Shown here piece by piece: positions 39,785-59,528 of a DNA stretch of 64,000 bases. Below the pieces are notes generated by a model. It made no database searches, was not told the DNA's origin, and saw only the letters and a list, made by a program, of their open reading frames with translations. Position 1 is the first letter of the stretch. Every line of letters starts with the position of its first letter. Origin of the DNA: Streptomyces sp. CG1 (GTDB lineage Bacteria > Actinomycetota > Actinomycetes > Streptomycetales > Streptomycetaceae). The stretch is from assembly GCF_041080625.1 (NCBI RefSeq), contig NZ_CP163518.1, positions 744,001 to 808,000 of the forward strand, given 5' to 3'. A program made the position numbers and the translations under genes.

Positions 39785-41043
39785 GCACGACCACCGAGTC
39801 CGCGGCCAAGCCCGTTCGGCTGGGACTCCGGGAGAACTGGCTGCAGTTCACACTCCTCGTCGTCGTCAACGTCTGTGTCGGCGGCCTGGTCGGACTGGAA
39901 CGCACCACCGTCCCGCTGATCGGTGCCCACACCTTCCGCCTCACCAATGACCTGGCCGTCTTCTCCTTCATCATCGCCTTCGGTCTCACCAAGGCCCTGA
40001 CCAACCTCGCCGCCGGTGCGCTCACGGCCCGCTTCCGCCGCAAGCAGCTCCTCGTGACCGGCTGGCTGATGGGCGTCCCCGTGCCGTTCGCCCTCGCGTG
40101 GGCGCCGTCGTGGGGCTGGATCGTCGCCGCGAACGTCCTGCTCGGCCTCAACCAGGGCCTGACCTGGTCGATGACCGTCAACATGAAGATCGATCTCGTC
40201 GGCCCGGCGCGGCGCGGACTGGCCACCGGCCTCAACGAGGCGGCCGGCTACACCGCCGTCGGCACCACCGCCCTCATCACCGGCTACCTCGCCACCGCCT
40301 ACGGCCTGCGGCCCGTCCCGGAGCTGATCGGGGTGATCTTCGTCGCCGCCGGGCTCGGCCTGGCCCTGATCGTGCGCGACACCGCTGCGCACGTCGCCCT
40401 CGAGCTCTCCCAGCACACCAAGCCCCTGCCGTCCAGCGAGAGCACCGCACTGGGCGCCACGTTCGCCCGGACCTCCTGGCACCACCGGTCGCTGCGCGGC
40501 GCCAGCCAGGCCGGCCTGGTCAACAACCTCAACGACGGCCTCACCTGGGGCGTCTTCCCGCTGCTCTTCACCGACCACGGTCTGGGAATCGCCGCCGTCG
40601 GCCTCATCAAGGGCCTCTATCCCATCCTCTGGGGCCTCGGCCAGATCCCCACCGGCCACCTCTCGGACCGCATCGGCCGCAAGCCCCTCATCGTCACCGG
40701 CATGCTCGTCCAGGCCGCCGGATTCGTCCTGGCCCTCGCCCTGCTGGACACTCCCCTCCTGGCCGGTGTCCTCTCCGCCATCGCGCTCGGACTCGGCACC
40801 GCCATGGTCTACCCGGCTCTGATCGCCTCGGTCTCCGACCACGCCCACCCGGCCTGGCGGGCCAACGCACTGGGCACCTACCGTTTCTGGCGCGACATCG
40901 GCTACGCCGCAGGCGCCCTCGTCGCGGGCATCCTCGCGGACGCCCTCGGTCTGAACGCCACGGTCATCGCCGCCGCGGTCTTCACGGCGGGCTCCGGTCT
41001 CCTGGCCGCCCACTGGATCAGCGAACACGACACCGGCCGCTGA
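39781..41043 (+). CDS. MFS transporter coupled to the MBL-rhodanese gene
   Basis: 420 residues, start overlapping the previous stop (ATGA). Twelve membrane helices; loop GALTARFRRKQLLVTGWLMG, second-half GHLSDRIGRKPLIVTGML. The family is a generic major facilitator. Translation coupling with a sulfur-processing enzyme suggests export of a sulfur oxyanion or other sulfur species, but the sequence alone does not tell. Confidence 0.88.
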   Translation: MSTTTESAAKPVRLGLRENWLQFTLLVVVNVCVGGLVGLERTTVPLIGAHTFRLTNDLAVFSFIIAFGLTKALTNLAAGALTARFRRKQLLVTGWLMGVPVPFALAWAPSWGWIVAANVLLGLNQGLTWSMTVNMKIDLVGPARRGLATGLNEAAGYTAVGTTALITGYLATAYGLRPVPELIGVIFVAAGLGLALIVRDTAAHVALELSQHTKPLPSSESTALGATFARTSWHHRSLRGASQAGLVNNLNDGLTWGVFPLLFTDHGLGIAAVGLIKGLYPILWGLGQIPTGHLSDRIGRKPLIVTGMLVQAAGFVLALALLDTPLLAGVLSAIALGLGTAMVYPALIASVSDHAHPAWRANALGTYRFWRDIGYAAGALVAGILADALGLNATVIAAAVFTAGSGLLAAHWISEHDTGR

Positions 41044-41205
41044 GGCCGGCACACGTCAGCCGAGTCGGCGGGATGTCCGGCCAGGCGGTGCGGCGGCGCC
41101 GCGGGATGGACGATGCGGTGCCCCACTCAGGTCGCCCGGGCGCATACGGCCGGGGCGTGGAGTCGTAGGACGCCGGGGCTTCTCGGTGCATGGATGGCAT
41201 GCCCT

Positions 41206-41240
41206 GGGCCGAAGGACCCGCGGCCGGGCCCGAGTGGCCC
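41206..41240 (+). promoter_or_regulatory. Two DosR/OsdR-like boxes before the cNMP-binding gene
   Basis: GGGCCGAAGGACCC (41206-41219) and GGCCCGAGTGGCCC (41227-41240) lie 21 bp apart, two helical turns. Both match the GGGCCGNNCGGCCC-like motif repeated through the cluster with one or two changes. They are 62-96 bases upstream of ATG 41302. Confidence 0.55.
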
Positions 41241-41301
41241 GTGGTGCCCTGGACCGGACGCGCCCACGCTGGGAGCAGAAGCCACGAAGGGAGCCAGTGC
41301 G

Positions 41302-41760
41302 ATGACCTCGGCCACCACCATGAACACAGCTCTGGAGCCCGTGCACCGCGAGCGGTTGATGCGGCTTGCCCGCGAGGTCTCCTTCGAGGCCGGGGCCCGC
41401 CTGTTCGAGGAGGGCGGGCGCGCCGACCGCTTCTGGATCGTGCGCACCGGCACCGTCGCGCTCGATCTGCATGTGCCCGGCCGCCGGTCCGCCGTCATCG
41501 ACGCCCTCGGTCACGGCGAACTGATCGGCTGGTCCTGGCACTTCCGGCCCTGCCTCTGGCACCTGGGCGGCGAGGCCACGAGCCAGGTGTGGGCCTGGGA
41601 GTTCGACGCCGACGCCGTGCGGGCGCAGTGCGACGAGGACCCCGAGTTCGGCCGGGCGATCGCCGTCTGGGTCGGGCGCGTGGTCGCCCAACGGCTGCAC
41701 GCCTCCCGGGTCCGGCTGCTCGATCTCTACGCCCCGTACGGCAGCGGTGGTCCGGCCTGA
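41302..41760 (+). CDS. Cyclic-nucleotide-binding-domain protein without HTH
   Basis: 152 residues, GAAGGGAG upstream. A single cNMP-binding beta-roll: FEAGARLFEEGGRADRFWIV, RTGTVALDLHVPGRRSAVID and ALGHGELIGWSWHFRP. The typical phosphate-binding RxxAxxxA signature is missing and no DNA-binding domain follows, so it probably works by protein contact or binds another ligand. First gene of the hypoxia-like cluster, with two palindromic boxes in its promoter. Confidence 0.82.
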   Translation: MTSATTMNTALEPVHRERLMRLAREVSFEAGARLFEEGGRADRFWIVRTGTVALDLHVPGRRSAVIDALGHGELIGWSWHFRPCLWHLGGEATSQVWAWEFDADAVRAQCDEDPEFGRAIAVWVGRVVAQRLHASRVRLLDLYAPYGSGGPA

Positions 41761-41767
41761 CCGGGTG

Positions 41768-41900
41768 ATGACCCGAGCCGTCGCCGCAGGACGGCCGGAC
41801 GGCCGGTTGGTCGGTGGTGTCCGAGGTCGATCTGCTGCCCGAGGAGAGCACGCCAGGAGAGCACGCCACGTCGGCCGAGGCCACGCGCGTCAGGGCGTTG
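41768..41900 (+). pseudogene. Remnant of a CBS-domain gene
   Basis: VMTRAV, GRPDGRLVG and, one base shifted, VVSEVDLLPEESTPGEHA and RVRALRRRRQKREGG recall the start and the GVVSEADLLPEE loop of CBS proteins like the one encoded on the opposite strand just downstream. Most of the gene is deleted. It overlaps the end of the minus-strand CBS-BON gene slightly. Confidence 0.5.
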
Positions 41901-42594
41901 CGGCGCCGGCGCCAGAAGCGGGAAGGCGGCGGGCAGGCTCCGGGCGGCGGGGCGGTCCGGTCAGCGCGCAGTGCACGTCCACCACGCCCGGCACGGCCCG
42001 TGCGAGGCGCGCCGCGAGCGGGATCAAGGCGGTTTCGCAGACCCGGCCGGCCAGCGTGACGACGCCGTCGTGGACCTCGACGCGAAGGGTGGCGGTGTAC
42101 GGGCCGAAGAGACGTACGACGACCTCGCGCCGGACCTCCTCGGCGATGTCCTCGTCGTGCCGCAGGAACACCTTCAGCAGGTCGGAGCGGCTGACGACGC
42201 CCCGGAGAAGGCCGTCACGCCCGACGACCGGCAGCCGCTTGACCCCGGTGCGGGCCATCAGGCGCGCGGCGTGGGCAAGCGTGGCGTCGGGTGCCACGGT
42301 CACCGCCGGAGCGGTCATCAGCCCGGCCGCGGTCACGGCGTCCGCCGTGCGGACCTCGGTGGGACGCCGTACCTGCCCGCACCGGCCGATGTCTCCGTCG
42401 CCGTACTCCTCTTCGGGCAGCAGATCGGCCTCGGACACGACGCCGACGACGCGTCCGGCGTCGTCCAGCACCGGCAGGGCGCTGACCCGCCACTCGTGCA
42501 TGACCTTCACGATGTCCTTGAAGGCCGCCCCTGCGCGCAAGGCGACGACCCGGTGCGTCATCACGTCGTTCACGAGGGCCGGAGTGCCGTTCAT
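41890..42594 (-). CDS. CBS-CBS-BON protein
   Basis: 234 residues. Two CBS motifs (VNDVMTHRVVALRAGAAFKD ... VVGVVSEADLLPEE; MTAPAVTVAPDATLAHAARL ... LLRGVVSRSDLLKVF) followed by a BON domain at ~150-215 (LFGPYTATLRVEVHDGVVTL, AGRVCETALIPLAARLARAV). CBS pairs bind adenosyl ligands; BON domains bind phospholipid or membranes. Proteins of this build are typical of actinobacterial dormancy regulons. A palindromic box pair lies 72-110 bases upstream. A paralogue is encoded at 47129-47839. Confidence 0.92.
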   Translation of the reverse strand: MNGTPALVNDVMTHRVVALRAGAAFKDIVKVMHEWRVSALPVLDDAGRVVGVVSEADLLPEEEYGDGDIGRCGQVRRPTEVRTADAVTAAGLMTAPAVTVAPDATLAHAARLMARTGVKRLPVVGRDGLLRGVVSRSDLLKVFLRHDEDIAEEVRREVVVRLFGPYTATLRVEVHDGVVTLAGRVCETALIPLAARLARAVPGVVDVHCALTGPPRRPEPARRLPASGAGAATP

Positions 42595-42665
42595 GGCGTC
42601 CTCCAGAGGCTCCGATGCCGTCTTCGGACAGCTTCAGGGTGCGCCGGCGGACCGGCAGACGGCAT

Positions 42666-42709
42666 GGGCCGAGTGGCCCGATCGCATGCCCCGTCGGCCC
42701 GACCGCATG
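42666..42709 (-). promoter_or_regulatory. DosR/OsdR-like box pair before the CBS-BON gene
   Basis: GGGCCGAGTGGCCC (42666-42679; 5-bp arms) is followed by a 14-bp direct repeat with one mismatch, GGCCCGATCGCATG (42675-42688) and GGCCCGACCGCATG (42696-42709), 21 bp apart. Tandem boxes at two-turn spacing are usual for DosR-type regulators. Confidence 0.55.
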
Positions 42710-42733
42710 GCGCGCGGGCTCCGGCGCGGGGGT

Positions 42734-44452
42734 TCACTCGGTGGGCAGTGGCACCCGCCAGTCCAGTGCGGCTCCGCCTCCCTCGGGACTCGTCACCTCG
42801 AGCCGCCCGCCCAGTCTTTCGGCCCGCTCGGCCATGTTGAGCAGTCCGCTGCGCCGTCCGCCGGACGGGATGCCGACGCCACTGTCCGAGACCTTCAGGC
42901 GCACCTCACGGCCGTCGGTCGTCAGGACCACCTGGGCCCGGTCGGCGTGGGCGTGCCGGGCGATGTTGGTGAGGGCCTCGGTCAGCACGGCCACGACATG
43001 GTCGGCGATCTCGAGCGGCACATCGGTGTCGACCAGGCCTTCCATGCGCACGCTCGGGGCGAAGCCCAGCACGGGGGCGGCCTCACCGACCGCGCGGACG
43101 ACCCTCGCCCGCAGTCCGCTGCCGCCGGTTCCCAGGGGTGTCCGCAGCCCGAAGATGGTCGACCTGATGATCTTGATGGTCTCGTCGAGGTCGTCCACGG
43201 CCCGCAACACGCGCTCGGCGGCCTGCGGGTGCTCGATGAACCGGCCCGCACTCTGCAGGGTCATCCCGGTCGCGAACAGCCGCTGTATGGCGAGGTCGTG
43301 CAGGTCCCGCGCGATACGGTCGCGGTCCTCCAGCACTGCGATCTGCTGGGCGTCCTGCCTGCGCTCGGCCAGTTCCATGGCGATGGCGGCCTGGGCGGCG
43401 AATCCCAGCAGCAGCTCGGTCTCCTGCTGGAGGAAGACCGGCCGGCCGACTTCGCGGGCCACCAGGACCACGCCTCGTACGCCGCTCTCCCCCGTGCCGA
43501 TCGGGACGGCGACGGCGGGGCCGAGCCCGCCGAAGCGCGGCGGCTCGGGGGTGATCCGCTGGTCATGGACGACGTCGTCGCTGGTGACGGGCGCGGTGGC
43601 GGTGTACGCCAGCCCCATCAGGCTTTCGTGCATGGGCAGCACCAGACCGCGGTGCGCCTCGGCGTCCACGCCGACGGCGATCTCCACGGTGAGCGACTTC
43701 GTGCCCTCCATGGGCAGGGCGACAGCGGCCAGAGCCGAGCCGGAGATCTCCCGGGCGCGCTCGGCGATCAGGCCCAGCGACGCGGCGCGGCTGCCGGACA
43801 TCAGGCTGTGACTGATCTCCGCGTTCGCGCGCTGCCAGCGCTCGCGCAGCCGGGATTCCTCGTACAGGCGCGCGTTGTCGATGGCCACGCCGGCCGCCAC
43901 GGCCAGCGTGGACAGGACCGACTCGTCCTCCTCGTCGAACTCCGCGCCGCCGCGTTTCTCCGTCAGGTACAGGTTGCCGAACACCTGGTCACGGACCCGG
44001 ATCGGGACGCCGAGGAAGCTGCTCATCGGCGGGTGGCCCGGCGGGAAGCCGTACGAGGCCGGGTGCCCGGAGATTCTCGCGATCCGGAGCGGATGCGGGT
44101 GCCGGATGAGCTCGCCGAGGATGCCGTGGCCTTCCGGGTAGGGGCCGATCGCGGCGATCTCCTCCTCGGTGACGCCCACCGTGTGGAAGGCGGACAGCCG
44201 TCTGCCGTCCGGTCCGATGACGCCGAGGGCGGCGTACTCGGCGTCCACGAGCACCGCGGCCGCCTCCACGATGGAGTACAGGACCTGCTCCAGGTTCAGC
44301 TCACGGCCGACGGAGAGGACCGCCTCCAGCAGACTGTGCACGCGGTCCTGGGTGCTGCGGGCCGCGTCGATCCGGGCCTGCAGCTCCTCCAGCAGCTCGT
44401 CCAGCTTCAGCTGCGGCAGTCGTACGCGAGGCTCCTCGGGGCCTGCCACCAT
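42734..44452 (-). CDS. DosS/OsdK-like two-GAF sensor histidine kinase
   Basis: 572 residues from ATG 44452 (MVAGPEEPRVRLPQLKL), GGAGGG upstream; the longer ORF start is unsupported. GAF1 (~45-195) closely follows the DosS haem GAF: HPASYGFPPGHPPMSSFLGV keeps the His that is the proximal haem ligand in DosS (PPYHPPM), and FGNLYLTEK keeps the distal-side Tyr. GAF2 ~215-365. HisKA_3 with RIARDLHDLAIQRLF and phospho-His, then HATPase_c (LTEALTNIARHAH, VSDSGVGIPSGG). Expected to sense O2, CO or NO and phosphorylate the response regulator at 47836. Kinase and regulator are 3.4 kb apart. Confidence 0.92.
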   Translation of the reverse strand: MVAGPEEPRVRLPQLKLDELLEELQARIDAARSTQDRVHSLLEAVLSVGRELNLEQVLYSIVEAAAVLVDAEYAALGVIGPDGRRLSAFHTVGVTEEEIAAIGPYPEGHGILGELIRHPHPLRIARISGHPASYGFPPGHPPMSSFLGVPIRVRDQVFGNLYLTEKRGGAEFDEEDESVLSTLAVAAGVAIDNARLYEESRLRERWQRANAEISHSLMSGSRAASLGLIAERAREISGSALAAVALPMEGTKSLTVEIAVGVDAEAHRGLVLPMHESLMGLAYTATAPVTSDDVVHDQRITPEPPRFGGLGPAVAVPIGTGESGVRGVVLVAREVGRPVFLQQETELLLGFAAQAAIAMELAERRQDAQQIAVLEDRDRIARDLHDLAIQRLFATGMTLQSAGRFIEHPQAAERVLRAVDDLDETIKIIRSTIFGLRTPLGTGGSGLRARVVRAVGEAAPVLGFAPSVRMEGLVDTDVPLEIADHVVAVLTEALTNIARHAHADRAQVVLTTDGREVRLKVSDSGVGIPSGGRRSGLLNMAERAERLGGRLEVTSPEGGGAALDWRVPLPTE

Positions 44453-44615
44453 GTCCCTCCAGATCCCGTCGGCGCAGGACAACGCGCCGGCGGGTTCCCT
44501 CCACGGTATCGGCTCCGACCTGGGGCCGGTACGCCGCCCGACGACAGCCGAGATCCCCCCCACGAGGCGGACGCCATCGGCCCGGACACCGGATCGACGG
44601 TAGTGCCGGCCGCGC

Positions 44616-45290
44616 TCAGGTCGTGATCCGGCGCCCGGTCACCGTGTGGGGCTCGATGCTCACCCACGCATGGCGCTCTCCGCCCGCCCAAGGAGTGCTG
44701 TACGCCCGCTCGTTGAACCATCGCGTGTCCCGCGTGTCTGTCACCGTCCGCGCGGGTCCGCGCACCAGAACGCTCCAGCCCTGGCTGAAGGCGTCGTCGA
44801 TGCGGTCGACCTCCAGGGCCACTTCCTGGCCGGCCGCCAGGGACGGGGTCGCACAGAGGCCGGTCCGGAAGACGATCGAACCGTCGACGATGCTGTAGTT
44901 GACGGGCACGATCACCGGTCCGGTGGCGGTGGGTACCGCCAGCCGGCCCACTCCGTGCGAGCCCAGCAGCGCCCGGCACTCGCCGGATGCCATCTCGGTC
45001 AGGCGGGGTTCGCGTGCGGCTCGGCCGAGGCCGGGTGGCAGGTCGGCGGCGCCGCCGGTCAGCTCGGTCACCGTGGTCTCCAGGGCCTCGGCCAGCCTGC
45101 TCAGGGGGCCGGTGCCCGGTGTGGCACCGGGATGCTCTTCCAGATACCCGAGATAGCTGACGGCCATGTCGGCACGGTCGGCCACCTCGCCTCGGGTCAG
45201 GCCGAGCCGTGCCCGCCGGGCGGCCAGCCGCCGGCCCAGGTCGCCCAGTGGCACCCCGTTCGCCACGTTCACTTTCGTCTGTTGGGTCAT
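44616..45290 (-). CDS. XRE-type HTH fused to a PNPOx-like flavin-binding domain
   Basis: 224 residues from ATG 45290 (AAGGAG ten bases upstream; the GTG at 45299 is too close to it). N-terminal ~75 residues form an HTH (LGDLGRRLAARRARLGLTRG, EVADRADMAVSYLGYLEEHP). The remainder is a pyridoxamine-phosphate-oxidase-like split barrel: SHGVGRLAVPTATGPVIVPV, NYSIVDGSIVFRTG, VALEVDRIDDAFSQGWSVLV. Such barrels bind FMN, F420 or haem, so the protein may be a redox-sensing one-component regulator. It lies 21 bp after the alcohol dehydrogenase and is probably co-transcribed with it. Confidence 0.88.
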   Translation of the reverse strand: MTQQTKVNVANGVPLGDLGRRLAARRARLGLTRGEVADRADMAVSYLGYLEEHPGATPGTGPLSRLAEALETTVTELTGGAADLPPGLGRAAREPRLTEMASGECRALLGSHGVGRLAVPTATGPVIVPVNYSIVDGSIVFRTGLCATPSLAAGQEVALEVDRIDDAFSQGWSVLVRGPARTVTDTRDTRWFNERAYSTPWAGGERHAWVSIEPHTVTGRRITT

Positions 45291-45311
45291 GGCCGGCACG
45301 CTCCTTCTCGA

Positions 45312-46382
45312 TCAGGCCGCGGGAACGGCGACTTCCGCGTGCTGCTCCCCGCCGAGCACCACCTTGAGCGCACCGGTCCGGGCGGCCTCGGCAAAGACGT
45401 CGTACGCGTCCGCCATGTGCTCCAGCGGGAAGGTGTGCGTGACCAGTTGCCCGGCCGGCAGCCGGCCGTCGGCGGCCATCCGCAGCAGGACGGGCGTGGA
45501 GTAGGTGTCCACCAGGCCGGTCGTGATGGTCACGTCCTTGCTCCACAGGTCTTCGAGGTGCAACGTGGCGGGCTTGCCGTGCACGCCGATGTTGGCCACA
45601 TGCCCGCCGGGGCGGACCATGCGGGTGCACAGCTCGAAGCTCTCCGGTACGCCGACCGCCTCCATGACCACGTCCGCGCCGAGCCCGTCGGTCAGGTCGG
45701 CGACCAGCTGGCCGGGCGCCTCGTGGACGTCGGCCACGGCGTCGGCGCCGAGCCGCCGGGCGGCCTCCAGCCGGGCCGGTGCCAGGTCGACCGAGATGAT
45801 CCGTTCCGGAGCGAACAGACGGGCCGTGGCGATCGCCGCGAGCCCGATCGGTCCGGCGCCGACGATCACCACGGTGTCCCCGGGGCGTACCTGCCCGTTG
45901 AGGACACCCACCTCGTAGGAGGTGGGGAAGATGTCCGCGAGCAGGACGGCGTCCTCGCTGCGCAGGGTGGCGGGCAGCGGGTGGACGGACAGGTCGGCGT
46001 AGGGCACACGGACGTACTCGGCCTGAGTGCCGTCGATCATGTGGCCCAGGATCCAGCCTCCGCCGCCCCGGCACTGCCCGTAGGCACCGTCCCGGCAGAA
46101 CCGGCACCGGCCACAGGAGCTGATGCAGGAGATCAGCACCCGGTCCCCGGGCCGTACGGAGCGCACGTCGCCGCCGATCTCGACGATCTCACCGACCGCC
46201 TCGTGGCCGAGCACCGTGCCGGAGCGGACCTCGGGGACGTCGCCCTTGAGGATGTGCAGGTCCGTCCCGCAGATCGTCACGACACCGACCTTCACGATGG
46301 CGTCGGTGGGTTCCTTGACGGCGGGGTCCGGGACGTCCTGCCAGGACGCCTGTCCCGGACCGTGGAAGACGAAGCCCTTCAT
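45312..46382 (-). CDS. Zinc-dependent alcohol dehydrogenase
   Basis: 356 residues, AAGGAG upstream. Medium-chain dehydrogenase: catalytic zinc CGTDLH and GHEAVG, structural zinc CISSCGRCRFCRDGAYGQC with four Cys, Rossmann GAGPIG at ~178. Reduces aldehydes or oxidises alcohols with NAD(P). Fermentative alcohol dehydrogenases of this kind belong to actinobacterial oxygen-limitation regulons. Two perfect palindromic boxes lie upstream, shared with the divergent STAS gene. Confidence 0.92.
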   Translation of the reverse strand: MKGFVFHGPGQASWQDVPDPAVKEPTDAIVKVGVVTICGTDLHILKGDVPEVRSGTVLGHEAVGEIVEIGGDVRSVRPGDRVLISCISSCGRCRFCRDGAYGQCRGGGGWILGHMIDGTQAEYVRVPYADLSVHPLPATLRSEDAVLLADIFPTSYEVGVLNGQVRPGDTVVIVGAGPIGLAAIATARLFAPERIISVDLAPARLEAARRLGADAVADVHEAPGQLVADLTDGLGADVVMEAVGVPESFELCTRMVRPGGHVANIGVHGKPATLHLEDLWSKDVTITTGLVDTYSTPVLLRMAADGRLPAGQLVTHTFPLEHMADAYDVFAEAARTGALKVVLGGEQHAEVAVPAA

Positions 46383-46395
46383 GGCAGCTCCTTGT

Positions 46396-46437
46396 TCCTC
46401 TTCGTCGGCCCGCCGCTCCTCTTCGTCGGCCCGCCGC
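46396..46437. repeat. Exact 21-bp tandem duplication
   Basis: A 21-bp unit beginning TCCTCTTCGTCGG and ending CCCGCCGC occurs twice with no gap (46396-46416, 46417-46437) in the leader of the alcohol dehydrogenase, 14 bases before the start codon. It moves the promoter by exactly two helical turns relative to the gene. Confidence 0.7.
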
Positions 46438-46512
46438 GGGTTCTGGCGCTCCGGCACGCGACCGGAATCGCCCCGCAGGTACAGCTTCGCCACTGGCCCG
46501 GCGCTCCCGCTT

Positions 46513-46526
46513 GGGCCGTCCGGCCC
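46513..46526. promoter_or_regulatory. Perfect DosR/OsdR-like palindrome 1
   Basis: GGGCCGTCCGGCCC: 6-bp arms GGGCCG/CGGCCC with a 2-base centre. Lies between the divergent alcohol dehydrogenase and STAS genes. Confidence 0.65.
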
Positions 46527-46566
46527 TCTCGCGCGGCCGAGGGTGCCCCGTATGGACCGGCCCCCA

Positions 46567-46580
46567 GGGCCGAACGGCCC
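46567..46580. promoter_or_regulatory. Perfect DosR/OsdR-like palindrome 2
   Basis: GGGCCGAACGGCCC: same 6-bp arms, AA centre, 54 bp from palindrome 1 and 37 bases before the STAS start. TATTGC follows at once and may be the -10 element. Confidence 0.65.
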
Positions 46581-46616
46581 TATTGCTCGGTCCTGCGTCC
46601 CCGGTTTCCTCGTGCC

Positions 46617-47006
46617 ATGTCCGAGAGCGACACGGCCGGCGTGGCGGCGGACCACACCGAACAGGACGTGGTCGTGGCCCAGCACGTGACCGACGGAACA
46701 ACCGTCGTGTCCCTGCACGGCGAGATCGACTTGCTGACCGCGCCGATCCTGTCCGAACGGCTCGATGCCCTCACCGCGTGCCACCGCCCCGACCTGGTGC
46801 TGGACCTGCGGCCGGTCACGTTCATCGACTGCGCCGGCCTCGGGGTCCTGTGCCGTGCACGCAACCGCACGCTGGCCCGGCGGGGCCGGCTGCGGCTGGT
46901 CACGGAGAGCTCGGTCTTCCGGGTCTTGCGGGTGGCGGGCCTTGGGGATGTCTTCGAGCTGCATCCACGGCTCCCCGAGCCTGAGCCGGGGGCCTCGTAC
47001 GGCTGA
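46617..47006 (+). CDS. STAS-domain (anti-sigma antagonist-like) protein
   Basis: 129 residues from ATG 46617. STAS fold with TTVVSLHGEIDLLTAPILSE and LVLDLRPVTFIDCAGLGVL. The phosphorylation loop that is normally DSSG is DCAG, so the Ser phosphorylated by anti-sigma kinases is absent; the protein would stay in its active, unphosphorylated state or no longer respond. Its promoter carries palindrome 2, placing it in the hypoxia-like regulon. No sigma or anti-sigma gene is adjacent. Confidence 0.85.
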   Translation: MSESDTAGVAADHTEQDVVVAQHVTDGTTVVSLHGEIDLLTAPILSERLDALTACHRPDLVLDLRPVTFIDCAGLGVLCRARNRTLARRGRLRLVTESSVFRVLRVAGLGDVFELHPRLPEPEPGASYG

Positions 47007-47025
47007 CGCGCGTGCAGCCGACGGG

Positions 47026-47060
47026 GAGCCGAACGGCCCGCCCGGGGGCCTGGTGGCCCC
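47026..47060 (+). promoter_or_regulatory. DosR/OsdR-like tandem boxes before the second CBS-BON gene
   Basis: GAGCCGAACGGCCC (47026-47039, one change from the perfect box) and GGGGCCTGGTGGCCCC (47045-47060, 6-bp arms) have centres 20 bp apart. They are 70-100 bases upstream of ATG 47129. Confidence 0.6.
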
Positions 47061-47128
47061 TGGCCTGTCCTTCGGCCACGGAACATGCTGAAGAGGGACC
47101 GGCCGCCACGGATCCCGTGGAGTTCACC

Positions 47129-47839
47129 ATGTACGGCGACTCGTACATCGTCAGCGATGTCATGACCCACACGGTGGCCGCCGTCGGGCGGCACACCCCC
47201 TTCGAGGAGATCGTGCGGCTGATGCAGGAGCGGCAGGTCAGCGCCCTGCCCGTGGTGCAGGGCGAGGGCCGGGTCGTCGGCGTGGTCTGCGAGGCCGACC
47301 TGCTGCTGCGCCGACCGGTCGGCCTGGCCAAGGCCGACGCCCTCGCCGAGGACCTGATGTCGTCCCCCGCCGTCACCGTCCGGGCCGACGCCACCCTTGC
47401 CGAGGCCGCACACACCATGGCGCGACAGCGAGTCAAGAGGCTGCCGGTGGTGGACGAGGCGGGGCTGCTCCGGGGCATCGTCAGCGGCGCCGATCTGCTC
47501 AAGGTCTTCCTGCGCGCGGACGACGACATCGCCGAGGAGGTCCGCCGCGAGATCGTGTCGTACCTCTTTCCACCGCCCGACTCGGCGATCCAGCTGGAGG
47601 TGCACGACGGAGTCGTGACACTCACCGGCCGGATCCGCGACACCGCCCTGGTCCCCGTGGCCGCGCTTCTGGCGCGTGCGGTGGCAGGCGTGGTGGACGT
47701 GCGGTTCGACCTCGCGCGCGACGATCACGGAGTGAGTGGGGCCGGTCGGCCCTATTCCGTACGACGCCGATGGATGGATGATCAGCTTCGTGGGCAGCTC
47801 GCAGCCTGTCCGTCCCTGGGGAACGAGAGGTCGTCATGA
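47129..47839 (+). CDS. CBS-CBS-BON protein, paralogue
   Basis: 236 residues from ATG 47129 with GGAG six bases upstream. Same order as the gene at 41890: YIVSDVMTHTVAAVGRHTPF, VVGVVCEADLLLRR, MSSPAVTVRADATLAEAAHT, LLRGIVSGADLLKVF, then BON (LFPPPDSAIQLEVHDGVVTL). After the BON domain an extra ~35 residues (GVSGAGRPYSVRRRWMDDQL) run into the response regulator with a 4-base overlap. That tail is encoded over a perfect palindromic box, so it may be a by-product of promoter sequence rather than a functional domain. Confidence 0.88.
   Translation: MYGDSYIVSDVMTHTVAAVGRHTPFEEIVRLMQERQVSALPVVQGEGRVVGVVCEADLLLRRPVGLAKADALAEDLMSSPAVTVRADATLAEAAHTMARQRVKRLPVVDEAGLLRGIVSGADLLKVFLRADDDIAEEVRREIVSYLFPPPDSAIQLEVHDGVVTLTGRIRDTALVPVAALLARAVAGVVDVRFDLARDDHGVSGAGRPYSVRRRWMDDQLRGQLAACPSLGNERSS
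47739..47752 (+). promoter_or_regulatory. Perfect palindromic box inside the CBS-BON tail
   Basis: GGGCCGGTCGGCCC has the same 6-bp arms and 2-base centre as the boxes at 46513 and 46567. It is 84-97 bases before the response-regulator start, so the regulator probably has its own autoregulated promoter. Confidence 0.6.
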
Positions 47840-48537
47840 CCGAGACACGCACCTTCACGGAGCAGCACCCGATCCGCGTGTTCCTGCTGGACGATCACGA
47901 GGTGGTACGACGCGGTCTCACGGACCTGCTCGACACCGAACCGGATATCTCGGTCGTCGGCGACGCGGACACCGCCGAGCACGCCCTCGTCCGCGGCCCC
48001 GCGCTGCGGCCCCACGTCGCCGTGCTGGACGTACGGCTGCCGGACGGGGACGGCATCTCGGTCTGCCGCGAACTGCGCAGCCGGATGCCGGAACTCGCGT
48101 GTCTGATGCTGACCTCGTTCGACGACGAGGACGCCCTGCTGGACGCCATCATGGCCGGCGCCTCGGGATATGTGCTGAAGCAGATCAAGGGCTCGGATCT
48201 CGTCTCCGCGGTACGCACCGTCGCCTCCGGCCAGTCGATGCTCGACCCCTCGACCACCGCCCGCCTGATGCGCTCGCTGCGCACCGACCCGGCGCAGGCG
48301 CCCTCGCCGCCGTCCGAACTGGCGGGCCTGTCGCCGCGGGAACGAGAGATCCTCGCGCTGATCGGGGACGGTCTCACCAACCGCGAGATCGGCACGAAGC
48401 TGTACCTGTCGGAGAAGACCGTCAAGAACCACATCTCCCGGATGCTGTCCAAACTCGGCGTCCAGCGCCGGGTCCAGGCGGCGGTCCTCGCATCCCACCT
48501 GGAACCGCAGGGCTCCGGGGGGCACGCGGACCGCTGA
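47836..48537 (+). CDS. DosR/DevR-like LuxR-family response regulator
   Basis: 233 residues, ATG overlapping the CBS-BON stop. Receiver: VFLLDDHEVVRRGLTDLLDT, phospho-Asp in VAVLDVRLPDGDGISVCREL, LMLTSFDDEDALLDAIMAGA, and Lys in SGYVLKQIKG. LuxR-type HTH: LSPREREILALIGDGLTNRE, LSEKTVKNHISRMLSKLGVQ. Wording is that of DosR/DevR/OsdR. It should be phosphorylated by the two-GAF kinase and bind the palindromes described through the cluster. Confidence 0.93.
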   Translation: MTETRTFTEQHPIRVFLLDDHEVVRRGLTDLLDTEPDISVVGDADTAEHALVRGPALRPHVAVLDVRLPDGDGISVCRELRSRMPELACLMLTSFDDEDALLDAIMAGASGYVLKQIKGSDLVSAVRTVASGQSMLDPSTTARLMRSLRTDPAQAPSPPSELAGLSPREREILALIGDGLTNREIGTKLYLSEKTVKNHISRMLSKLGVQRRVQAAVLASHLEPQGSGGHADR

Positions 48538-48582: not shown

Positions 48583-49026
48583 TCACTGCTTCTGGGCGCG
48601 CACGATCACGACCGGGCAGCTCGCATGCTGGGACACATGCTGGCTGACCGAGCCGAGCAGGGCGGCCGCGAACCCTCCCCTGCCCCTGCTGCCGACGACC
48701 AGGACCTCGGCTCCCTCGGCGGCCCGCAGCAGCACGTCGGCGGGGTTGCCGTGCACCACATGGCTGCGGACCGAGTCGGCCACGTCCACGCCGAGCACGT
48801 CGGTCAGCTCCTTCCGCATCCGCTGCCGGGTCTCCTCCTCGTCGACGTCCATGTCCACGGCGGGCGCCGACCAGCCGTACAGCCCCGGCAGCTCCCACAC
48901 CGCGACCGCCTCCACGGTGCCGCCGACGAGTCCCGCGTACCGCACGGCCCAGCGCAGGGCCTCGTACGACGACGGCGAACCGTCGACACCGACGACCACC
49001 CGACGTTCGGAGGCATCCCGTTCCAT
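48583..49026 (-). CDS. Universal stress protein, UspA type
   Basis: 147 residues from ATG 49026 (the GTG at 49035 overlaps the ribosome site). VVVGVDGSPSSYEALRWAVR at the N terminus and the ATP-binding GSRGRGGFAAALLGSVSQHV ... CPVVIVRAQ at the C terminus, so a nucleotide-binding Usp. Typical member of hypoxia or dormancy regulons. No clear palindromic box was found in its own upstream region. Confidence 0.92.
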   Translation of the reverse strand: MERDASERRVVVGVDGSPSSYEALRWAVRYAGLVGGTVEAVAVWELPGLYGWSAPAVDMDVDEEETRQRMRKELTDVLGVDVADSVRSHVVHGNPADVLLRAAEGAEVLVVGSRGRGGFAAALLGSVSQHVSQHASCPVVIVRAQKQ

Positions 49027-49176
49027 GTGTCCCACCTCTCCTACGGCTCACCCGCCCGTCGACCGACCCCCCTGTCCTTTCCACGCTGCACGCGCTCCCG
49101 CCATCCCGCCATCCCGCCGGGCAATCGCAGGCCCGGCACAGGGTGAGGACCACCTCCGCACCGGGCCGGAAAAGGG

Positions 49177-58630: not shown

Positions 58631-58667
58631 CGCCTGTTGTCCACCCTCGTTGCCGGAAGGACCCGCC

Positions 58668-59528
58668 ATGGGACTGTCCTGGCAGCAAGGCCCCCTCTCC
58701 GCGGGCGCCATCGGACACTTCCTCACCCCTCACCCGCTGCCCGAGCGGCTCCTGTTCGCCGAGCGTCTGCGTCGCCGTATGCGGGCGCGGTTCAACGACA
58801 CCTGGATCGCCGACAGCGAGGACGTCGCCCTCCTGCACGAGCCGGGCCGCTACCCGGTCGCCTACTTCCCCCGCGCGGACCTCGACGCGCAGGCCCTGGT
58901 CGCGAGCGACAAGGTCACCCGGCACCGGGATCTCGGTGCGACGGCCTGGTACACGGTGCGGGCCGGCGACCGCAGCGCCGAACGCGCCGCCTGGGAGTTC
59001 ACCGCGCTCCCCGATCACGCCGCCGGCCTCCAGGGCCGTACCGCCTTCGCCTGGCGGGCCATGGACGCCTTCTACGAAGAAGACGAACGCATCCTCGGCC
59101 ACGCCGCCGACCCGTACCACCGCATCGACATCCGCGACACCTCCCGCCTGCTGGAAGTCCGGCTCGGCAGCGCGGTGATCGCCCGGTCCGAGCACCCGGT
59201 GGTGCTCTTCGAGTCCGGCTTCGCCCCGCGCTGGTACGTGCCGCGCGCCGACATCGACGAGCGGAGGCTGCGCCCCGTCGAAGGGCAGACGTTCTGCCCC
59301 TACAAGGGTGTGTGCGACTACTACGACATCGGCGACGTGCGGCGCGCGGCCTGGTCGTACCGCGACGCCTACCGGGAGGCCGACCGGATCGACGGCCTGG
59401 TCTCGTTCGAACCGGACAAGGCCGAGGTCTGGCTCGACGGCGAGCGGCTGTACCTGGAGCCCGGGCAGACGGTCGTCCCGCACGGCGCCGACCGCGGGCT
59501 CGACGTCGGCGAGGTCACGCGCCGTTGA
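58668..59528 (+). CDS. DUF427-domain protein, duplicated domain
   Basis: 286 residues from ATG 58668 with GGAAGGA upstream. Two copies of the DUF427 unit: ~35-125 (DSEDVALLHEPGRYPVAYFP, RHRDLGATAWYTVRAG) and ~150-260 (ARSEHPVVLFESGFAPRWYV, EGQTFCPYKGVCDYYDIGDV). The PYKG with following Tyr is the family signature. No activity is established for the family. Likely in one operon with the hydrolase before it. Confidence 0.9.
   Translation: MGLSWQQGPLSAGAIGHFLTPHPLPERLLFAERLRRRMRARFNDTWIADSEDVALLHEPGRYPVAYFPRADLDAQALVASDKVTRHRDLGATAWYTVRAGDRSAERAAWEFTALPDHAAGLQGRTAFAWRAMDAFYEEDERILGHAADPYHRIDIRDTSRLLEVRLGSAVIARSEHPVVLFESGFAPRWYVPRADIDERRLRPVEGQTFCPYKGVCDYYDIGDVRRAAWSYRDAYREADRIDGLVSFEPDKAEVWLDGERLYLEPGQTVVPHGADRGLDVGEVTRR

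Follow-up and report, generated by a model that had tools for sequence, protein, structure and literature searches.

An osd-type gene cluster with candidate OsdR-binding palindromes in a Streptomyces genome carrying two osd regions

OsdR of Streptomyces is a known relative of the dormancy regulator of the tuberculosis bacterium. For the OsdK/OsdR system of S. coelicolor (SCO0203/SCO0204) the palindromic consensus AGGGCCGATCGGCCCT has been published (Urem 2016, PMC5069765); in the same paper osdR carries AGGGCCGGTCGGCCCC at -81, osdR-osdK is called an operon, and binding of OsdR to the consensus is backed by EMSAs and mutated probes. The predicted OsdR sites of S. coelicolor include that of osdR itself; others, in Table 1 of that paper, are at the Crp-like gene SCO0168, the PNPOx gene SCO0214, zinc dehydrogenases and universal stress protein (USP) genes, and its lower-cutoff set comprises 27 elements. 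OsdK/R has also been treated as an oxygen and nitric-oxide system in a 2022 review (PMC9739842). Close-packed primary and secondary sites, bound cooperatively, have been described for DevR (DosR) of Mycobacterium tuberculosis (PMC3029386); close packing or primary/secondary sites are likewise a subject of PMC7018068, and the relevant passages of these two papers give no figure for the tandem-site spacing.

In this work we have analyzed a stretch of 64,000 nucleotides (C1:744001-808000, hereafter the window) of the 11.1 Mb genome of Streptomyces sp. CG1, in which an earlier note had proposed a hypoxia- or dormancy-like regulon held together by palindromes. The gene order is cNMP (+), CBS-BON (-), two-GAF kinase (-), XRE-PNPOx (-), ADH (-) and STAS (+), followed by a second CBS-BON (+), a response regulator (+) and USP (-) (Table 1). 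It is our conclusion, with a probability of roughly 0.88, that the window contains a copy of the osd locus of Streptomyces, with OsdR-type control exerted through the palindromes. The proposal was partly supported, being right in kind for a system that was already known: the cluster is real, but it belongs to a stress regulon that has been largely described, predicted OsdR sites at several of the same gene classes being listed by Urem 2016 (PMC5069765).

According to the published description, the palindrome consensus and a site upstream of osdR are common to S. coelicolor and this locus, and the target classes listed there (Crp-like, zinc dehydrogenase, PNPOx, USP) are also present here. The differences are that regulator and kinase are each present twice in this genome, that the window kinase belongs to a separate clade and lies 3.4 kb from the regulator, unlike the adjacent pair of the described operon, and that the STAS and CBS-BON genes are unnamed in the main text of PMC5069765, from which the words CBS and STAS are absent. 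The regulator and kinase of M. tuberculosis are homologous to the window pair, whereas its gene set is another one and the window sites are those of the published Streptomyces consensus.

Table 1 Genes and candidate OsdR-type sites of the cluster (window coordinates; site scores from the OsdR matrix)
Feature	Position	Strand	Domains, best relatives or score
cNMP-binding-domain protein	41302..41760	+	PF00027, E 4.7e-11
CBS-BON protein	41890..42594	-	PF00571 x2, PF04972
Two-GAF histidine kinase, OsdK/DevS type (putative)	42734..44452	-	GAF, HisKA_3, HATPase_c; DevS-type GAF = best solved relatives
XRE-PNPOx protein	44616..45290	-	HTH_31, Pyridox_ox_2
Zinc alcohol dehydrogenase (ADH)	45312..46382	-	ADH_N, ADH_zinc_N
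STAS-domain protein	46617..47006	+	PF01740, E 2.4e-16
Second CBS-BON protein	47129..47839	+	PF00571 x2, PF04972
Response regulator, OsdR/DevR type	47836..48537	+	Response_reg, GerE; DevR 3c3w E 2e-71
Universal stress protein (USP)	48583..49035	-	PF00582; best upstream score 2.2
Weak tandem site pair 41206/41227, upstream of cNMP	41206..41240	.	6.3, 4.1
Weak tandem site pair 42666/42687, upstream of CBS-BON	42666..42700	.	6.0, 4.8
Exact OsdR-type palindrome, ADH/STAS divergent promoter	46513..46526	.	16.3
Exact OsdR-type palindrome, ADH/STAS divergent promoter	46567..46580	.	21.5
Tandem site pair 47026/47046, upstream of second CBS-BON	47026..47059	.	11.0, 3.6
Exact OsdR-type palindrome, 97 bp before the regulator start	47739..47752	.	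18.5

Judged by its sequence, the 47836 response regulator is homologous to OsdR/DevR, with a NarL-type receiver and a LuxR-type HTH; after DevR its next best solved relative is VraR (E 2e-39). The kinase can be classed as a putative haem sensor of the OsdK/DevS type. Its best solved relative is 2vzw ('probable histidine kinase response regulator'), which we take to be DosT, followed by DevS GAF structures, and it keeps the aligned HPPM and LYLT stretches of the DevS-type GAF, which presumably hold DevS H149 and Y171. Both assignments agree with those made in the earlier note.

The palindrome GGGCCGNNCGGCCC occurs exactly, as that note had recorded, at 46513, 46567 and 47739. The repeats have the form of the published OsdR consensus and look like candidate OsdR binding sites. 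They were scored with a symmetrised matrix built from 26 published OsdR sites, by which no further site above 14 was found in the window; the next best (13.96, at 59032-59047) is perhaps a chance resemblance. A long reading frame, 58650-59528, encloses these positions. Genome-wide the exact palindrome is found 24 times in 11.1 Mb, with three of these occurrences within 1.3 kb here. As background, 620 kb of the same genome were sampled as 31 stretches of 20 kb at spaced positions, leaving out both osd regions and the region of a third regulator: sites scoring at least 14 numbered three in 41001-48000 versus none in the sample, and those scoring at least 10 numbered four in these 7 kb versus 39. 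The three exact palindromes are thus real and above chance. Two of them, 54 bp apart, are situated in the divergent ADH/STAS promoter. The location given for the third needs correction: 47739 falls within the second CBS-BON frame, in the 3′ tail beyond its BON domain, 97 bp ahead of the regulator start. There GGGGCCGGTCGGCCCT, at 47738, is a putative autoregulatory site of the regulator gene.

Conservation was examined in the best 80 of at least 562 confirmed stretches from relatives (L047-L126; 75 of the 80 titled Streptomyces), a gene being counted when its best site within 300 bp upstream scored at least 14. Homologues under 60% coverage were left out, as were those below identity floors of 72% for the regulator, 70 for the kinase, 75 for ADH, 65 for USP, 55 for STAS, 55 for the first CBS-BON, 52 for cNMP, 50 for the second CBS-BON and 40 for PNPOx. 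Because the relatives are not independent, the resulting counts overstate the evidence. A site of this strength was present in 4.6% of 1680 random 310-bp intervals from the same loci. Among the matches listed, it preceded 68 of 85 regulator homologues, and 47 of these had it at -90 to -104; the 17 homologues without one (ten of them below 10) count against the best explanation. The corresponding values, again among the matches listed, were 11/12 for ADH and 10/11 for STAS. The STAS site is not merely borrowed from ADH, since four of the five loci without a counted ADH have one (L047, L054, L057 and L065; not L093). In G146, which is closely related and has its genes arranged in the same way (regulator 95%, kinase 94%), the exact sites are unchanged, with 28/28 bases at 46513 and 46567 and 14/14 at 47739; non-site identity in the ADH/STAS stretch is 170/206, an underestimate owing to an offset at the ends of the stretch.

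The genome contains a second osd region (G000 C1:390001-490000, represented by loci L127-L131) with seven OsdR-type sites of at least 14 in 100 kb. Its regulator, at C1:448208, is 91% identical to that of the window and its kinase, at 406 kb, is 83% identical; the two are also apart, by about 41 kb. Close to the second kinase are homologues of cNMP and CBS-BON. The second regulator is directly preceded by a CBS-BON homologue and has an upstream site of its own (13.0 at -96). Because of this 91% identical copy, sole control of the cluster by the 47836 regulator, as put forward in the earlier note, is unproven, and there is a considerable chance, if somewhat short of even, that the second OsdR copy is the main binder of the palindromes or that the two copies bind them equally, in which case 47836 would not be the specific controller. 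The 47836 regulator nevertheless lies inside the cluster and has the strongest type of osdR site directly upstream, with which sharing is still compatible. Of 150 genomes of the genus, 104 had both regulator and kinase at the cut-offs used, 6 had only one of the two and 40 had neither (Fisher P 3e-29, a value too small since the genomes are related), and 45 of the 107 positive genomes had at least two regulator matches.

The near matches require a different judgement. They stand where the earlier note had placed them, with one mismatch at 42666 and 47026 and two at 41206 and 41227, and also at 47046; their matrix scores are weak, or middling in the case of 47026. Matches with up to two mismatches number 44 in the window versus 42.7 expected, and genome-wide the scan with up to one mismatch gave 705 versus 912 for the reversed control pattern. 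Since neither count shows enrichment, loose matches prove nothing by number, and their counting was dropped as evidence. It is therefore a serious, though not the favoured, possibility that 41206, 41227, 42666, 47026 and 47046 are products of chance in G+C-rich DNA and that only the three exact sites matter. The upstream regions of homologues point the same way and count against the best explanation: among the matches listed, strong sites (at least 14) preceded 14/55 cNMP, 2/40 CBS-BON and 1/21 PNPOx homologues, and none of the 21 second CBS-BON or eight USP homologues within 300 bp. So do changes in G146: a single base is inserted in the 42666 site, and 23/28 bases of the 47026/47046 pair are retained. 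The G146 stretch compared upstream of cNMP aligns poorly (13/28 site bases) and was set aside as unusable.

Position and spacing argue for the near matches. The best CBS-BON site, although weak, is at -83 to -94 in eight of nine minus-strand homologues, the window included, and the -96/-97 position of the best cNMP site recurs in L047, L048 and the genome's own paralogue L127, the best site being elsewhere in L051, L053 and L079. The pair spacing of 20-21 bp that had been noted holds for 41206/41227 (21 bp), 47026/47046 (20 bp) and 42666 with its weak partner 42687 (21 bp), but not for the exact sites, none of which has a partner scoring at least 3 at 19-23 bp. This spacing resembles a strong tandem signal in relatives: around 257 sites of at least 14 in 86 loci or stretches, 114 partners were found at 20-23 bp versus about 6 expected, and when the matrix columns were scrambled 20 times, 2-15 pairs were obtained in 19 cases and 61 in one. 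A partner at this distance accompanied 87/186 sites scoring 12-16 versus 26/94 scoring at least 18 (P 0.002), and only 85/356 scoring 8-10 and 62/187 scoring 10-12; the relation of pairing to strength is a hint only, because sites of the osdR promoter probably make up most of the strong class. By analogy, a tandem spacing of 20-23 bp would fit DevR-like cooperative primary and secondary sites. Conserved position and spacing together lend the near matches partial support.

Binding of the palindromes by some other local factor, such as the cNMP protein or the XRE-PNPOx protein with its helix-turn-helix, is very improbable, as the cNMP protein is without a DNA-binding domain by Pfam and OsdR binding to this consensus has already been published (PMC5069765).

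If the window contains an osd locus under OsdR-type control, the kinase would sense low oxygen or nitric oxide through its haem GAF domain and would phosphorylate the regulator at 47836. Once phosphorylated, the regulator would bind palindromes of the AGGGCCGNNCGGCCCT type upstream of its own gene and in the promoter region shared by the divergent ADH and STAS genes, and could bind more weakly, via the poorer site pairs two helical turns apart, before both CBS-BON genes and cNMP. Bound regulator would be expected to switch these genes on rather than repress them, and the kinase and PNPOx genes may be read through from the ADH promoter. In the 300 bp upstream of these two genes no site of their own was found (best scores 5.0 and 2.8, respectively), nor was one found upstream of the window USP gene. 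Among the matches listed, 12 of 17 kinase homologues have an upstream site of at least 14, the window's not being among them.

These results locate a low-oxygen regulon known from earlier work in a Streptomyces whose osd system is duplicated, point to the STAS and CBS-BON genes as likely OsdR targets, and suggest a DevR-like arrangement of 20-23 bp tandem pairs for OsdR-type sites. The extension of the regulon that had been foreseen is narrower than claimed: cNMP-like and PNPOx-like genes, as classes, are no extension because Crp-like and PNPOx targets are listed in PMC5069765, and STAS, absent from the main text of that paper, may be one. The additions (STAS, weaker CBS-BON membership, a separate kinase clade and a second copy) are incremental. 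A larger proposal, in which the STAS gene (anti-sigma antagonist-like) is a conserved direct OsdR target and thereby links sigma-factor partner switching in Streptomyces to low oxygen, by way of a duplicated osd locus that has its own kinase clade, seems to us rather doubtful.

In the kinase tree the window kinase falls in a clade of 17 rows (support 99/99), none labelled as end to end with the regulator, a label given when kinase and regulator are on opposite strands within 600 bp; a separate clade of 30 rows (97/100) has 22 rows so labelled. In L061, L078, L094 and others the adjoining kinase is on the strand opposite to the regulator, end to end with it, in contrast to the osdR-osdK operon named in PMC5069765. 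The window kinase and the XRE-PNPOx gene are separated by only about 160 bp (44452-44616). A third kinase relative (47%) at C1:5281028-5282671 and a third regulator relative (60%) at C1:5510149-5510826 are both located far from the osd regions.
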